Shown: piece by piece, positions 1 to 6,329 of the stretch
Numbering within the stretch: position 1 is the first letter of the stretch
Layout of the letters: each line of letters starts with the position of its first letter
Source: a bacterium
GTDB taxonomy: Bacteria > ARS69
Length of the DNA stretch: 6,329 nucleotides
NCBI GenBank assembly: GCA_025774865.1
Contig: JALGZO010000553.1
Coordinates: 1 to 6,329, forward strand
Direction of reading: 5' to 3'
Made by a program: the position numbers and the translations under genes
The notes under the pieces: model-generated
What the model saw: only the letters and a program-made list of their open reading frames with translations
The model's database searches: none
Told to the model about the DNA's origin: nothing

Positions 1-161
1 AGGAGGTGGAACTGCGGCATGACGCTCGGACCGACATCTCTCTAGGTCTGGTCGAGGCGCGAAGCCGGCGCGTCGGGCGGATCAAACGAGATCGATTGGG
101 GGGGGCCCTTCGCAGTGCATGTGACCGTTGAGCTGCGGCTCACAACAAGAACGAGGTGCAA
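1..161. other. Upstream region without a convincing gene
   Basis: This stretch precedes the radical SAM gene. One plus-strand frame is open from position 3 to a TGA at 129-131 (about 42 codons, Arg-rich, with only moderate third-position G/C bias). It could be the 3' end of a gene that starts outside the window, but the peptide resembles no family I know. An AGGAGG at 1-6 precedes an ATG at 19 that opens only eight codons before a TAG. A run of eight G lies at 98-105. I see no clear promoter hexamers. Confidence 0.3.
153..156 (+). promoter_or_regulatory. Ribosome binding site of the radical SAM gene
   Basis: GAGG lies five bases before the ATG at 162. It overlaps the in-frame GTG at 156, which would be a start only two codons earlier with no Shine-Dalgarno sequence at normal spacing. 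This favours ATG 162 as the start. Confidence 0.6.
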
Positions 162-2060
162 ATGAGTTTCGCCGGCAAAGTGCTACAGGCCACCGGACAA
201 CTGGCCTGGGGAGCCCTCCAAGTCGTCAATACTCGCCTGCCGGAGACGCCGGCCGGAAAGCCGTCCTGGGCCCCGGCACCGTTGCTCAAGTCCCACGAGC
301 GTTCGAAGCCGCCGCTGGGGTACCCGCGAGAGACCGATTCCCTCTGCCCCGTGTGCGTGATCGAGACGCGCAATCAGATCCTCGACGGCAGCCGCGACGT
401 CTCCGAGCTGGTCGACGGCCACATCGGCGAGATCAAGGCACAGCTTTACGAGGACGAGCAGGGTCACGTCCGTGTGAAGAAGACGTGTCCCGAGCACGGC
501 ACGTTCGAGGACCTGCTCTCGATCGACTCCGCGTTCAGCCGCAAGATCGAGAGCCGGTTCCCAGGCCGCGACTACCGCACGCTCGGCGACGCCCTGATCC
601 ACGACCACGGCACGTCGTCGATCAAGTACGGTCGCGGCGCCGTGCTGACGATCGACCTGACGAACCGCTGCAACATGATGTGCAACCCATGCTTCATGGA
701 CGCGAACCAGGTGGGGTACGTCCACGAGCTCACTCTCGACGACATCAAGAGGATCCTGGACGACTCGATCTCGTTCAAACCGCGCCGGCAGATGTCCGTT
801 CAGTTCTCCGGCGGCGAGCCGACGCTGTCGCCGCACTTCCTGGACGCGTGCCGTTACGCGAAGAAGATCGGCTACGTGATGGTGCAGGCCGCGACGAACG
901 GCATCCGCTTCGCCCTCGAGCCCGAGTTCGCCCAGCAGGCGAAGGACGCCGGCTTCGACTTGGCGTACCTGCAGTTCGACGGCATCACGAACGAGGACAA
1001 CGCCCATCGCAAGGTGTCGAACCTGTTCGACGTCCGGCGCCAGGCCATCGATAGAATGGCCGCGGCGGGGATCCACGTCACGCCCGTCGTCACGGTCATC
1101 AACGGTGTCAACAACCACGTCGTCGGCGAGATCCTTCAGTACTCCATGGACAACCACCACATGATCGACGGTCCGGCGTTCCAGCCCGTCTCCTTCACGG
1201 GCCGCGACGAGGAGATCAGCGACGAGCAGCGACACCGCCAGCGCTACACGACCTCGCATCTCGCCCGGGACATCCAGCAGTACTTCGACGGGCGCATCGA
1301 CCCGTTGCGGGACTGGTTCCCGCTCGGCGCTGGAACGGCCCTGGCCGCCCTCGTCGACCACATCCGCGGCCCGGACACCACCTGGGGGCAGCTCTCCTGT
1401 TCCTGCCATCCGAACTGCGGTGCTTGTGTCTTGCTGGCTCGCAACAAGAAGACCAAGGACTGGGCACCCGTCTCGTCGTTCTTCGACCTCGACGCGTTCC
1501 TGGCGGACATCGACACCATCGTCGACTCCGGGCGCGGGAGGAAGCTGTCTCAGGCGCAGGTGGCGATGTCCCTGATCCGCAACTTCGACGAGAGCAAGGC
1601 GCCGGTGGGCCTGACCAGCCGCATTCTGATCGACATCCTGCGCAACCGACTCGGTGGGAAGAAGATCGACCCCGACGGGCCCGCAGCGCAGTGGGAAGTC
1701 ATGTGGTTCGCGAGCATGTGGTTCCAGGACCTGTGGACGTATGACTTCCGGCGCACCGAGATGTGCGTGATCCCCTACGGCACGCAGGAGGGGGAGATCT
1801 CCTTCTGCGCGTACAACACCGGCGTCGGATGGCGGCAGGTCGTGGAGAAGATGCACATGGTGGCGACGACCAAGGAGTGGTTCAAGACCCAGGGGCGCCA
1901 CCCCGTCTACGCGGGCGACCGCCCGATCCCGCTGAAGAAACTCCCGCTACAGGTCGTCTCGGTGCAGCCCAACGGTTCCGCGCCAGGAAACGGAGAAGAG
2001 CCGAACTCCCACGTGTCGCCAGCGAAGGAGAAGATCAGCACGCAGAGCGCCAGAACATAG
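162..2060 (+). CDS. Radical SAM protein, Tes-like (tetraether/membrane-spanning lipid synthase type)
   Basis: This is a 632-residue radical SAM enzyme. The core CxxxCxxC is C170, C174 and C177, which should bind the SAM-cleaving [4Fe-4S] cluster. FSGGEP at 215-220 is the SAM-binding GGE-type motif. The N-terminal module has CPVC (C62, C65) and CPEHG (C109-G113), a pattern I associate with the Tes/MJ0619 group, whose N-terminal domain binds a mononuclear metal. Further cysteines that could hold auxiliary clusters are C413, C415, C419 and C422 (SCSCHPNCGAC), C535, and C549 in FCAYN. Archaeal Tes joins lipid tails of membrane lipids by C-C bonds between unactivated carbons. Bacterial relatives have been proposed to make membrane-spanning lipids, and a similar role here is inference. 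Residues 1-25 could form an amphipathic helix, and the tail after about 597 is polar and probably disordered. The frame is intact. The next gene converges, so the gene is probably monocistronic or the last in its operon. Radical SAM assignment is near certain; substrate is not known. Confidence 0.9.
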   Translation: MSFAGKVLQATGQLAWGALQVVNTRLPETPAGKPSWAPAPLLKSHERSKPPLGYPRETDSLCPVCVIETRNQILDGSRDVSELVDGHIGEIKAQLYEDEQGHVRVKKTCPEHGTFEDLLSIDSAFSRKIESRFPGRDYRTLGDALIHDHGTSSIKYGRGAVLTIDLTNRCNMMCNPCFMDANQVGYVHELTLDDIKRILDDSISFKPRRQMSVQFSGGEPTLSPHFLDACRYAKKIGYVMVQAATNGIRFALEPEFAQQAKDAGFDLAYLQFDGITNEDNAHRKVSNLFDVRRQAIDRMAAAGIHVTPVVTVINGVNNHVVGEILQYSMDNHHMIDGPAFQPVSFTGRDEEISDEQRHRQRYTTSHLARDIQQYFDGRIDPLRDWFPLGAGTALAALVDHIRGPDTTWGQLSCSCHPNCGACVLLARNKKTKDWAPVSSFFDLDAFLADIDTIVDSGRGRKLSQAQVAMSLIRNFDESKAPVGLTSRILIDILRNRLGGKKIDPDGPAAQWEVMWFASMWFQDLWTYDFRRTEMCVIPYGTQEGEISFCAYNTGVGWRQVVEKMHMVATTKEWFKTQGRHPVYAGDRPIPLKKLPLQVVSVQPNGSAPGNGEEPNSHVSPAKEKISTQSART

Positions 2061-2184: not shown

Positions 2185-2490
2185 CTAACTGGCCTTCTTG
2201 TAGCGCCCGACTTCCCGCTCGAGGCGACCCTCGAGACGGTCGCGCTCGACCTCGAGCTCGTAGTCCATCTGAAGGCCGAGCCAGAACCCCGGCGACATGT
2301 TGAAGTAGCGGGCCAGCCGAAGTGCCGTGTCTGCCGTAACCCGTCGTTTCCCGAGCACGATCTCGTTCACGCGACGGGGAGGCACGCCGATCTCACGCGC
2401 CAGGTAATTCTGGCTCAGCTCCATGGGGATCAGGAACTCCTCGAGCAGGATTTCCCCAGGGTGAACGGGATCGAGTCTCTTACGGGCCAT
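2185..2490 (-). CDS. higA: HigA-family antitoxin, XRE-type HTH regulator
   Basis: This 101-residue protein has the typical length and features of the HigA antidote family. HPGEILLEEFL at 10-20 is the family's N-terminal signature. A Cro/CI-type helix-turn-helix follows at about 25-63 (LSQNYLAREIGV, then RRVNEIVLGKR), and then the conserved NMSPGFWLGLQ at 64-74. The C-terminal tail (about 76-101) is charged and helical. HigA proteins bind and neutralise the mRNA-cleaving toxin HigB and repress their own operon. The start is ATG 2490, with GAGG at 2496-2499 five bases before it. A TTG further upstream (2511) would add seven residues and lacks support. In higBA operons the toxin gene comes first, and here the C-terminal codons of such a gene end seven bases upstream. 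The toxin is broken, so HigA now appears to be an orphan that might act only as a repressor or protect against a HigB encoded elsewhere. Confidence 0.9.
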   Translation of the reverse strand: MARKRLDPVHPGEILLEEFLIPMELSQNYLAREIGVPPRRVNEIVLGKRRVTADTALRLARYFNMSPGFWLGLQMDYELEVERDRLEGRLEREVGRYKKAS

Positions 2491-2495
2491 GATCG

Positions 2496-2499
2496 CCTC
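2496..2499 (-). promoter_or_regulatory. Ribosome binding site of higA overlapping the higB stop
   Basis: On the minus strand GAGG lies five bases before ATG 2490, and its first bases are part of the TGA (2500-2498) that ends the higB remnant. This arrangement is typical of translationally coupled toxin-antitoxin pairs and supports ATG 2490 as the start. Confidence 0.6.
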
Positions 2500-2563
2500 A
2501 GTGGTAGTCAACGATCTCTACGTCGAGGGCATCCCCGCGAGCCATCGATTTCCAGCGCCTTGA
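2498..2563 (-). pseudogene. higB: C-terminal remnant of a HigB/RelE-type toxin gene
   Basis: On the minus strand, the codons directly before higA read GDALDVEIVDYH followed by TGA. The ending DVEIVDYH is characteristic of HigB toxins (RelE/ParE superfamily ribosome-dependent mRNases), and it sits exactly where a higB gene should end. An intact HigB has about 90-115 residues. Here the frame meets a stop (TGA, 2566-2564) only 21 codons upstream, and none of the three frames further upstream shows recognisable HigB sequence. The stub cannot encode a working toxin, since most of the fold is absent. An internal deletion or replacement has probably removed the rest. The identification rests on a short match, made much stronger by its position and frame. 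Confidence 0.7.
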
Positions 2564-2639: not shown

Positions 2640-3962
2640 TTAGGGCCCCGCTCGAGCCGCATTCTGCTTCCGTTTCGTCATGAGCGGGAGGAGGAAGATG
2701 CAGAGCAGCCCGAAGCACCCGTCCACGAGGAGGGTGTTGGGGTAGCCGAACCGCTCGATCCACCACCCCTGCCACTTCGCGCTGTAGGCGATCACCAAGT
2801 TCAGAACCGCCATGTAGGCGGTGAATTGGGTGGCCGCCACCGCGGGCGTGGTCACGTCCATGAACAGCGCGGTCCGCGTTCCGTACATGAGCCCGTTAAC
2901 GACCGCGTACAGCAGGGTCGCGATCCAGAAGGCCTGGAAGAGCGCCGGCGGCGCGATCGGGCGGTCCGCAGCCAGGACGTCCACGGGCATGATCCATCCG
3001 TGATGCTTGAGCACAACGGAGAGGTAGAACACGGGGATCGAGATCAGAGCGATGTAGATGCCGAGCGCGCGACGCCGCCCGATCCGATCGGAGAGCTGGC
3101 CGCCGGCGATGCACCCGCCGGCGGAAAGAACCGTCGACCAGAAGGCGAGGTTGGCGATGCCCGCATCGGTCATGCCGATCTCGACCGCAAGGTTCGACTG
3201 GAGGGCCAGGCCCAGGCTCATCGCCCCCGCCGGGAGCAGGGCGAACAGGAAACCGACGAACGCCGGCCGCGAGCCGAACATGGCCTTCACCGAGTCCTTC
3301 AGGAACGTCCAGATCTCGTGGAGGATGTGCGCGGCGGCCCCCTCGCCGCCGTCGTCGGGCGTGGCCTCCACCCTCGGTTCCTTGAGGGGTAGGGCCACCA
3401 GCAGGGTGACGGACAGGATGCACGCGCCCACGAAGAAGAACGTGCTCGAGAAGGGCATGAAGGCGGTGAGCCAGAGGACGCCCGAGCCGCCGATGGTCTG
3501 ACCCAGATATGCCGCCCCGAACATGAGTCCGTTGGCCAGGCCGCGCTCGTGCTCCCCGAGCACCTGGACCGCGAGCGCGTCGATGGCTACGTCTTGAGTG
3601 GCCGCGAAGACATTGTGCACAAGGAGCAGGATCGTGAAGAGCTTGAGCTCGTCGGGCAGATCCACCCCCACCGTGGCGACGAGGGTGAGGACCATGAGGC
3701 ACTGGCAGCCGACGATCCACATTCGCCGCCGCCCCCATCGCTCGACGTGAATGAGGTCGACGACCGGGCCGACCACGAACTTGAAGGACCAGGGAATGTA
3801 GAACGACGCGATGAAGGCGCCGATCTCCTCCGGGCCCACGCCCTGGCGGCGGAGCTGGGTGGCCACCGCGGTGGCCACGAACCCCAGGGGGATGCCTTCC
3901 GTCAGGTAGAGGAAGAAGAACGCGGTGAGTCGCCCGCGCTTGCTCGCCAGCAGGTTCGGCAT
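2640..3962 (-). CDS. MFS transporter, AmpG/PAT family (12 TM)
   Basis: This 440-residue integral membrane protein has about 12 hydrophobic segments: roughly 12-35, 47-71, 80-100, 106-134, 145-165, 168-192, 232-255, 265-290, 300-320, 340-360, 370-392 and 403-425. A charged loop lies between TM6 and TM7. Family signatures are WSFKF with GPVVD (58-69), the basic GRRR loop (77-80) and ATQDVAIDA (121-129), which corresponds to the QD-D element of AmpG. The second half has GGQLSDRIGRRR, a form of MFS motif A. AmpG of Proteobacteria imports anhydro-muropeptides for cell-wall recycling, and eukaryotic relatives carry acetyl-CoA. The substrate here is unknown, and no muropeptide-recycling gene lies nearby. 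The start is bounded by an in-frame TAG (3974-3972) four codons before the ATG, although no good ribosome site is visible. The gene precedes the higB stub on the same strand with a gap of about 75 bases, so co-transcription with higA is possible. Confidence 0.85.
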   Translation of the reverse strand: MPNLLASKRGRLTAFFFLYLTEGIPLGFVATAVATQLRRQGVGPEEIGAFIASFYIPWSFKFVVGPVVDLIHVERWGRRRMWIVGCQCLMVLTLVATVGVDLPDELKLFTILLLVHNVFAATQDVAIDALAVQVLGEHERGLANGLMFGAAYLGQTIGGSGVLWLTAFMPFSSTFFFVGACILSVTLLVALPLKEPRVEATPDDGGEGAAAHILHEIWTFLKDSVKAMFGSRPAFVGFLFALLPAGAMSLGLALQSNLAVEIGMTDAGIANLAFWSTVLSAGGCIAGGQLSDRIGRRRALGIYIALISIPVFYLSVVLKHHGWIMPVDVLAADRPIAPPALFQAFWIATLLYAVVNGLMYGTRTALFMDVTTPAVAATQFTAYMAVLNLVIAYSAKWQGWWIERFGYPNTLLVDGCFGLLCIFLLPLMTKRKQNAARAGP

Positions 3963-4295
3963 TCGGGGAGACTAAGGCCTCGCGCGGTCCGGTGCCATCG
4001 TAGACCCGGCAGCCGCCCGGCGTGGGTGCGAGACAATGGGAGCTTCTCCAAGCGGTGGGTTCGTCGTGGGACTCGAGGCCGGCAACAAGGGCGAAGGGAT
4101 CAACATCAGGACGACGGAGACATGGAAGCGCACGCGAACATCCTGGTACCGCTGCAGGCGGCCTACACCCCACGTATCAGTCCGCCCAGACGCCCGTCCG
4201 TGATTCAAAGGCGGATCAGGGACTCATCTACCAGGCCCGGAGTCCGAGAGGCCATTGCACGCACTCCGAGCCCGGGGCGTCGTAGGAGGGACAGG
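3963..4295. other. Divergent intergenic region
   Basis: This 333-base gap separates the 5' ends of the transporter gene (-) and the FG-GAP gene (+), so it should hold promoters for both. I found no pair of hexamers at proper spacing that I would call. A TACGAT on the minus strand resembles a -10 element but has no partner at -35. CGGAGT (4238-4243) and ACTCCG (4263-4268) could form a weak 6-bp hairpin just before the FG-GAP ribosome site. Open frames cross the gap, but their translations are Arg/Pro/Ser-rich and resemble nothing known. Confidence 0.5.
4284..4290 (+). promoter_or_regulatory. Strong ribosome binding site of the FG-GAP gene
   Basis: AGGAGGG lies five bases before the ATG at 4296. 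The reading frame stays open far upstream, into the divergent transporter gene, so this site together with the signal peptide that begins at 4296 decides the start. Confidence 0.85.
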
Positions 4296-6329
4296 ATGAA
4301 CAGAATACGCGCGGCGCTCGCGGTCATGACACTGACCGCGGCGTTCCTCGGGCACGCGGCGATCGGCTCCGCCCAGACCGGCGTGGATGTGGAGAGCTAC
4401 TTCGTGGCTCCGTGGCGGGCCTGGGATGCCGGCTATTTCGCGAGCACCGCCGGCATTCCGGACGGCGGGTTCGGCCCGGAGGCGATGGCCGTCGGAGACA
4501 TGAATGGCGACGGCATTGCGGACGTGGTGATGTCGCACTCGTATTTCGGGTTCCCGGGCGTCTCCGTCATGTTCGGACAGGGCGCCGGGATCTTCGGCGA
4601 GCCGGTCTATTACGGCACGTCGCACAGCGTGAACGTGATCGACCTCGAGCTCCACGACTTCGACGCCGACGGCGACCTGGACGTCTTCGGGGCGATCTAC
4701 GGCAACTCCGGCTCCGGTACCGCCGTGGGGCTCTGGCGCAACAACGGAAACGGCGCTCTCGGGCCGCGTCAAAACCTCACTGTCGGCCAGGGCCCGTGGG
4801 ACATCGAGCTCGCCGACGTCACCGGCGACGGGATCGCCGACCTCGTCGTCACCGAACAGGGCCTCATCAACGGGAACAACACGCTTTCCATGAGGGAGCA
4901 CAACGGGCTCTCCGGCGGCGCCGCGGGCTTCCTGGCACCGGTGGTCTCGACGACCGTCAACGGGGCGCAGGGTCTCGCCGTGGTCGACATGGACGGCGAC
5001 GGGTTGCGGGACGTCGTTGTGGGGGGCAACTACTTCCGCAACATGGGCGTGGGGATCAACACGGGCGGAGGCTCGTTCGCACCGCCGTCGGTGACGTACG
5101 ACCTCGACTACTACACGAGCTACACCTCGGCCAACCTGTTCGCGGCGGATTTCGACAACGACGGCGACAACGACGTCGCGACCTCCTCGGGCGGCGCGCT
5201 CTGCATCTGGCGCAACGACGGCACGGGTGCTCTCACCGGGGCCAACGGCGCCGAGTCCTATCTTTTCGCGCGGCCCGATCCCCTGGCGCCGGGCGGCACC
5301 GCCTCGGGAGTCAACTCGCACCGACTGAAGGCGATCGACATCAACGGGGACGGCTGGCTGGACATCCTGAGCGCCAACTCCAGCGGCCGCTCGGGCGAGA
5401 GCTGGAACGTGGTGCTCAATGACGGCACGGGCACGTTCCTCGATCCGGTGGCGTACCACTGCTCGCAGAACACCTACGACATCGATGTCGCCGACGTCGA
5501 TGCGGACGGCGACCTGGACGTGCTCACGATCGCCCACTTCTCGAGCGCGCTCACCGTCCACCTGAACCAGGGCGGAGCGGACTTCCGCGTGATTCCGCCG
5601 TCTGCGCCGGCCGAGGGGGCGGCCCAGCAGCTCGCGGTCGCGGACCTGGAGCTCGACGGAGACATGGACGCCGTCACCATCGGCAACCGGGCGACAATCC
5701 TGCGGAACCCGGGCGACGGCACGCTCGTTCCCGACCCGTCCTCCTACATCACTCCGATGAACGGCAAGGATGTCGTCCTCGAAGATTTCAACGGGGATTC
5801 CTACCCGGACATGGTCATCGGGCCGGACTCGGCGTATCCGCCCTACGTCATCGGCGTGTCGCTGAACGACGGGACGGGGTCGTTCCTCCCCGGAACGATC
5901 TTTTGGCCGTTGGGAGGCAGCTGCGGGACGGGGACGCTCGCGACCGGCGACTTCGACCACGACGGGGACGTGGACATCGCCCTGAACGAGGAGCAACGCT
6001 GCTTCGGGGACCTGTACAGACTCTCGTCGGCGGCTTCGGGCTCGCGACGGCCGACTTCGACAACGACGGAAATCTGGATCTCATCACGGCCCCGGTCGAC
6101 TTCAACAAGACCTTCACGGTCTACCCGGGGAACGGTGACATGACGTTCGGGGCGGGCATCACCACCACCGGCCCGCTTCCCCCGAGCCGTACGTACCTCG
6201 GGCTCTTTCGGGTCGCCGACTTTGATCAGAACGGAATCCTGGACGTCGCCACGCTGCTCGATGAGCAGGCGTTCGGCACCAACATCGCGGGGGTATTCCT
6301 TGGCAACGGGGACGGCACGTTCGCCTCGA
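4296..6329 (+). CDS. Exported FG-GAP/VCBS repeat beta-propeller protein, frameshifted, 3' partial
   Basis: The protein starts with a clear Sec signal peptide: N-terminal Arg residues, a hydrophobic core at about 6-23, and a probable cleavage after GSA (residue 26). After it come repeats of the type DxNxDGxxDxxx, which bind calcium within FG-GAP/VCBS beta-propeller blades. Their first Asp residues are at 68, 121, 174, 231, 285, 348, 400, 450 (degenerate), 497 and 552, a period of about 53 residues. Between them recur the companion phrases NDGTG or NNGNG followed by F or L. The original frame then derails after CFGDLY and would stop at TGA 6141-6143 (615 residues). The repeats continue in another frame (VGGFGLATADFDNDGNLDL and VADFDQNGILDVATL) to the window edge. 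One base therefore appears to be missing near 6014-6022, by mutation or by assembly error. No C-terminal sorting domain can be seen because the gene is cut off. Such proteins are usually extracellular or cell-surface adhesins or structural proteins. The partner is unknown. Confidence 0.85.
4497..6253 (+). repeat. At least 12 FG-GAP/VCBS calcium-binding repeats
   Basis: Coding repeats, diverged at the DNA level, each contain one Asp-rich calcium loop. The first Asp codons are at 4497, 4656, 4815, 4986, 5148, 5337, 5493, 5643, 5784 and 5949 in the first frame, then at 6053 and 6218 in the shifted frame. The spacing is mostly 140-190 bases. The array continues beyond the right edge. Confidence 0.85.

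Follow-up and report, generated by a model that had tools for sequence, protein, structure and literature searches.

The closest described system is tetraether synthase (Tes, or GDGT-MAS; NF045702), represented by MJ0619 (7TOL, 7TOM), which joins saturated sp3 carbons and stores a radical on an [Fe4S4] cluster (PMC9433317). Three [Fe4S4] clusters are present in MJ0619, along with an iron in a rubredoxin-type site. The iron is bound by C9, C12, C33 and H36, and the N-terminal cluster by C73, C77, C80 and a histidine; Met439 binds the C-terminal cluster as a labile ligand, and the protein has a conserved Tyr459 (PMC9433317). Bacterial Tes homologues as such are already known. In the accessible part of their paper, Zeng et al. 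(2022) proposed them for brGDGT synthesis and named Acidobacteria (PMC8941075), and the accessible text of another report proposes two homologues for brGDGT synthesis in Solibacter usitatus (PMC10087280). As of 2025, activity of a bacterial Tes homologue was still described as unconfirmed in the accessible part of a Black Sea study (PMC11868695).

The window, i.e., the whole stretch of 6,329 nucleotides analysed here, is the entire contig C557 of a 4.7 Mb genome assembled in 785 contigs (92.65% complete and 8.3% contaminated according to its record). It encodes a Tes-like radical SAM protein (Table 1) which is probably a membrane-associated enzyme that joins the fatty-acyl tails of bacterial lipids. 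The reading frame is open throughout, a ribosome-binding-like sequence (GAGGTG) lies directly 5' of the ATG, and GC by codon position is 0.61/0.43/0.90, the third-position value indicating real coding sequence. The 572-aa frame on the opposite strand, which several relatives show too, was rejected as a gene and is a GC-rich shadow of the Tes-like gene.

Table 1 Features of the window and of the Tes-like protein (residue numbers refer to the 632-aa product).
Feature	Position	Strand	Remarks
Upstream frame end	3..131	+	Truncated by contig start; stop 30 bp 5' of the ATG
Tes-like radical SAM gene	162..2060	+	632 aa; ATG at 162
N-terminal amphipathic helix, residues 3-23	168..230	+	AlphaFold helix, pLDDT 78-90
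Rubredoxin-type iron site C62, C65, C109, H112 (= MJ0619 C9, C12, C33, H36)	345..497	+	79/79; Pfam Zn_ribbon_HMPTM
Lost N-terminal cluster site, now H147-x-H149-G150	579..641	+	Ligands absent in 79/79
Radical SAM motif C170x3C174x2C177	669..692	+	79/79; PF04055
GGEP, residues 217-220	810..821	+	Invariant in alignment A1
SAM-closing loop Q341, S344, R348 (= MJ0619 Q268, S271, R275)	1182..1205	+	79/79; roles from PMC9433317
C413-x-C415-HPN-C419	1398..1418	+	C-terminal cluster C419 (= MJ0619 C338) in 79/79; two extra cysteines
C-terminal cluster M519 (= MJ0619 M439), C535, Y539 (= MJ0619 Y459), C549	1716..1808	+	79/79
Opposite-strand frame, 572 aa	183..1901	-	
Small HTH_3-type protein	2185..2511	-	
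MFS transporter	2640..3962	-	
FG-GAP repeat protein	about 4290..6143	+	Repeat pattern runs on in a second frame to 6328

Sequence and predicted fold both place this protein with Tes. The best NCBIfam model is Tes itself (NF045702; E 2.8e-90, 303.3 bits), although the equivalog cut-off of 450 bits is missed, and the second is TrsS (NF045646; 197.7 bits, cut-off of 490 bits not reached); Pfam assigns Radical_SAM (PF04055) and Zn_ribbon_HMPTM. When PDB sequences were searched with phmmer, MJ0619 (7TOL/7TOM) was the sole match covering most of the protein (E 1.4e-61), and these NCBIfam and PDB E-values put the similarity to Tes far beyond chance. The AlphaFold2 model (mean pLDDT 81.5, pTM 0.86) aligns with 7TOL over 474 residues (VIA-align; Z 36.2, rmsd 3.0, 27% identity), and the Foldseek E-value between model and Tes is 2e-33. 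The next fold family is MoaA, at Z 21.8 vs 36.2 for Tes. In the predicted structure, the Tes superfamily fold (GDGT-MAS) extends over the whole length. These results bear out the Tes-family placement that an earlier note had made from the letters alone, as sequence, tree and fold all lead to Tes. That note had also named placement in another radical SAM family, such as a peptide-modifying SPASM clade, as an outcome that would speak against it, and no SPASM family was recovered: the best SPASM-type maturase fold, SkfB (6efn), reaches Z 17.1 vs 36.2 for Tes, and SPASM-type models score far under their cut-offs.

All motifs on which this early placement was based are present, both the N-terminal and core motifs (C62PVC65, C109PEH112G, C170x3C174x2C177, G217GEP220) and the late ones (S-C413-S-C415-HPN-C419-GA-C422, F-C549-AYN). 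Their conservation was evaluated in an alignment (A1) of the window protein and 78 close relatives (n = 79) with two canonical bacterial Tes and MJ0619. Of the late cysteines, C413 (78/79) and C415 (79/79) are indeed conserved, C415 being found in some canonical proteins as well, while C422 occurs in only 1 of the 79 aligned proteins. The expectation that the extra cysteines would fall on Tes cluster sites proved right for the rubredoxin site and the C-terminal cluster, whose cysteines align, and wrong for the N-terminal [Fe4S4] cluster, whose ligands are absent. From their conservation, MJ0619 C338, C455 and C470 would be the ligands of the C-terminal cluster. Taken together, the retention of the radical SAM cluster, the C-terminal cluster cysteines and the equivalents of M439, Y459 and the SAM loop would support a coupling reaction.

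Loss of the N-terminal cluster is uniform across the window protein and its 78 relatives (79/79), with gaps in place of MJ0619 C73 and C77, serine or alanine for C80, and lysine, arginine, glutamine or threonine for H83. Second copies in the genomes of relatives (L105, L106, L108 and L111) lack the ligands too; these four alone were counted as new, since rows L102-L121 mostly duplicate genes already in the alignment. By contrast, all ligands are kept in the canonical bacterial Tes L002, L003 and L101. Because of this absence, the window protein is not a Tes equivalog and belongs to a separate sister clade found in bacteria.

The clade has also gained features of its own. H147 and H149 are invariant (79/79), and the HxH pair together with the CxC pair may form a replacement metal site. 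Residues 141-160, which include the HxH stretch, have low pLDDT (54/52), and the C413-x-C415 stretch is likewise poorly ordered in the model, a low order that would fit a metal site folding on binding. At the N-terminus, the clade-specific extension before the first CxxC, with W16, W36 and K43 in 79/79, includes a predicted amphipathic helix that MJ0619 lacks, with a hydrophobic moment of 0.40 in the window protein and 0.51-0.62 in seven relatives. This helix is a possible membrane anchor.

Phylogenetic analysis (44 rows, LG+C20, PMSF) recovered the proteins without the N-terminal cluster as a monophyletic group (support 100/100) whose stem has a length of 2.69 changes per column, indicating one origin for the shared cluster loss and the gain of HxH and CxC. 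Within the clade, the window protein pairs with L021 and L023, from metagenome-assembled genomes (MAGs) labelled Acidobacteria (100/99). Canonical bacterial Tes and MJ0619 fall outside; the order of these outside rows is unsure because the long branch L101 joins near the clade stem, as flagged by a program warning. The same partition is seen in NF045702 scores, with canonical Tes at 472-619 bits, the clade at about 285-350 bits, and a clean gap between. Given its overall similarity to Tes, the protein could in principle be an ordinary Tes making isoprenoid GDGT in its host bacterium, yet this reading is very improbable when it scores 303 bits against a cut-off of 450, lies across this gap from canonical Tes, and has lost the N-terminal cluster ligands.

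A small-molecule or peptide substrate, as in the pterin methyltransferase (HMPTM) role earlier given to MJ0619 or in the TrsS selenoprotein branch, is also improbable, albeit less so. The N-terminal ribbon is labelled HMPTM by Pfam, and the TrsS model ranks second in NCBIfam (198 bits), but TrsS-like proteins lie further outside in the tree (100/99) and carry a histidine at the labile Met position. In addition, Lloyd et al. were unable to corroborate the earlier role of MJ0619 and judged methanopterin binding unlikely (PMC9433317), and no peptide gene stood out among frames of at least 80 aa in the neighbourhoods.

The clade is widespread in Acidobacteriota. Canonical Tes was detected in 34 of 297 sampled Acidobacteriota genomes, about 11 of which also hold the clade, and in 124 further genomes the best match lies in the clade score band (a count omitting 13 genomes with a best E-value weaker than about 1e-84), for a clade total of about 135/297 (45%). 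In a bacteria-wide sample the clade was found in 6 of 290 genomes, including the window genome and at least one from Acidobacteriota, while plasmid records gave distant relatives only. By their MAG labels as given, named clade loci belong to Acidobacteria, Gemmatimonadota, Latescibacterota, Calditrichaeota, KSB1, Planctomycetota and others. To our knowledge, some of these carriers belong to groups without known membrane-spanning lipids, which counts against a coupling role. On the other hand, many clade genes are carried by the family of Pyrinomonas, an obligately aerobic organism with >40% ether and membrane-spanning lipids (PMC4644332), and iso-diabolic acid is made by Acidobacteria of subdivisions 1, 3, 4 and 6 (accessible part of PMC13274423). 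A more specific proposal, possible though doubtful, is that the clade is the missing oxygen-tolerant synthase of membrane-spanning lipids in aerobic Acidobacteria, a Tes-type enzyme that has lost the N-terminal cluster at its surface, acquired a new His2Cys2 site (H147-x-H149, C413-x-C415), and converts ester-linked iso-branched tails to iso-diabolic acid.

Gene neighbourhoods differ by lineage. In the nearest relatives of the window protein, ChaC-like and AMP-binding-like genes precede the enzyme, the AMP-binding (acyl-activating-like) gene lying directly upstream in seven of them. The truncated frame at the start of the window is a possible upstream operon gene; it had no significant match to these ChaC-like or AMP-binding-like genes, and an AMP-binding relative was not found in the host genome, an empty answer which shows little. 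B12 radical SAM genes recur in other lineages: an HpnR-like gene lies 2 kb upstream in three Gemmatimonadota loci (L030, L031, L034), its product (331 bits vs the HpnR cut-off of 650) being a candidate methylase of the same lipids, and HpnJ/BchE-like genes adjoin the enzyme in L027 and L035. Three Acidobacteriota genomes (L124, L125, L126) have a canonical Tes 0.2-6 kb from the clade member. In 16 loci (L037, L039, L044, L047 and others), one or more copies of a ~200-aa protein with a signal-peptide-like start follow the enzyme; the one member tested had no Pfam or NCBIfam match.

Lipid A genes are the other frequent neighbours, with lpxA, lpxB or lpxD within 4 kb of the enzyme in 12 of the 52 loci with enough flank. 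These occur in at least three arrangements and in many Acidobacteria loci, including lpxD-lpxC/fabZ-lpxA-lpxB followed by the Tes-like enzyme (L036) and lpxD directly downstream of it (L051, L052, L066), and the lpx neighbours tested pass their own family cut-offs. Since loci of a lineage share ancestry, such neighbour counts are not independent events, and the association could be inherited synteny. The lpx neighbours in several lineages nevertheless raise the alternative of a lipid-tail modification other than in glycerolipid tetra-ester or tetra-ether cores, either on lipid A or outer-membrane acyl chains or through a bond that is not tail to tail. The long clade stem and altered cofactor set fit this alternative. 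Some genomes, moreover, encode a pair of clade members, or one alongside a canonical Tes, which suggests divided labour. We consider it unlikely, given that the parts of Tes used for tail-tail coupling (the C-terminal cluster with its labile Met, and the Tyr) are invariant, and that different genes flank the enzyme in the nearest relatives of the window protein. Independently of these neighbours, the distance between the clade and Tes (stem 2.69, 27% identity) means that the substrate may have changed.

Coupling of lipid tails remains best supported by the combination of retained catalytic parts, neighbours and taxonomic distribution. The analysis establishes the family, the fold, which ligands are retained or lost, monophyly, neighbours and distribution, whereas substrate, reaction, membrane binding and metal site are inferred. 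The likely substrates would be a pair of unactivated fatty-acyl tails in bacterial glycerolipids; if both were iso-C15, for instance, the products would be membrane-spanning lipids of the iso-diabolic acid type. The radical SAM cluster would cleave SAM, and the resulting 5'-deoxyadenosyl radical would abstract a hydrogen from the end of a tail lying in a hydrophobic tunnel. By forming a C-S bond with the C-terminal [Fe4S4] cluster, which has a labile Met ligand, the resulting carbon radical could then be parked until a second tail radical displaces the parked carbon and the C-C bond is formed. With the N-terminal [Fe4S4] cluster lost, electron delivery must differ from that of Tes, and electrons may pass via the rubredoxin iron or by some other route. 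The DUF2229 domain, which occurs in PlsA/Ger-type proteins and was considered as a marker for ether lipids, is present in the host and in each of the four canonical-Tes genomes tested, vs 3 of 15 others; the domain is not specific, and the pattern is a weak hint that the clade is independent of the PlsA/Ger ether route and may use ester-linked lipids.

The host context counts against the coupling role in two respects. The contig shows no other lipid gene, just as the earlier note had observed for the window, and the Tes-like gene is absent from all four other genomes examined of the host phylum (five genomes, one family). The contig may or may not be mis-binned; its MFS transporter matches Acatn and BT1 and has relatives of 43-57% identity in three of those four genomes, which are of the same family. 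The small HTH_3-type protein resembles HigA-family antitoxins, and no HigB-like frame was seen in the stretch before its gene. In the FG-GAP repeat gene, the frame change near position 6000 is a frameshift or assembly error.

Soil Acidobacteria contain membrane-spanning lipids, and the clade is a strong candidate for their synthesis. An enzyme for iso-diabolic acid or branched tetraethers in this phylum bears on widely used palaeothermometers, and the split between canonical proteins and those without the N-terminal cluster changes which gene to test and to count in environmental surveys. The clade also represents a natural experiment on the purpose of the Tes N-terminal cluster, left open by the authors of the Tes structure. 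In the accessible parts of the literature, with supplements and subscription papers outside this scope, we came across no account of a bacterial class without that cluster; as far as the accessible texts of Zeng et al. and the Black Sea study indicate, their homologues very likely include the clade, undivided by cofactor content (PMC8941075, PMC11868695).

Among described enzymes, Mss couples bacterial fatty-acyl tails and is said to have the Tes catalytic architecture (accessible part of PMC13274423), a likeness by description only, and is linked mostly to anaerobic conditions in the accessible part of the Black Sea study (PMC11868695). TrsS (NF045646) resembles the clade in its radical SAM core and in having a related N-terminal part; unlike the clade, TrsS-like proteins keep the N-terminal cluster cysteines, carry His where the clade has the labile Met, and form a long separate branch. 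Canonical bacterial Tes (L002, L003, L101, and L125 at 7821-9596) have the same architecture as the clade and sometimes share a genome or neighbourhood with it, but score 483-593 bits, and L002, L003 and L101 retain all N-terminal cluster ligands. With Tes (GDGT-MAS), finally, the clade has in common its fold, the rubredoxin site, the radical SAM core with the SAM-closing loop, and, at the C-terminal cluster, the cysteines, the labile Met and the conserved Tyr, whereas it differs from MJ0619 in being bacterial, scoring below the cut-off, lacking the N-terminal [Fe4S4] cluster, and carrying the additional HxH, CxC and amphipathic helix.
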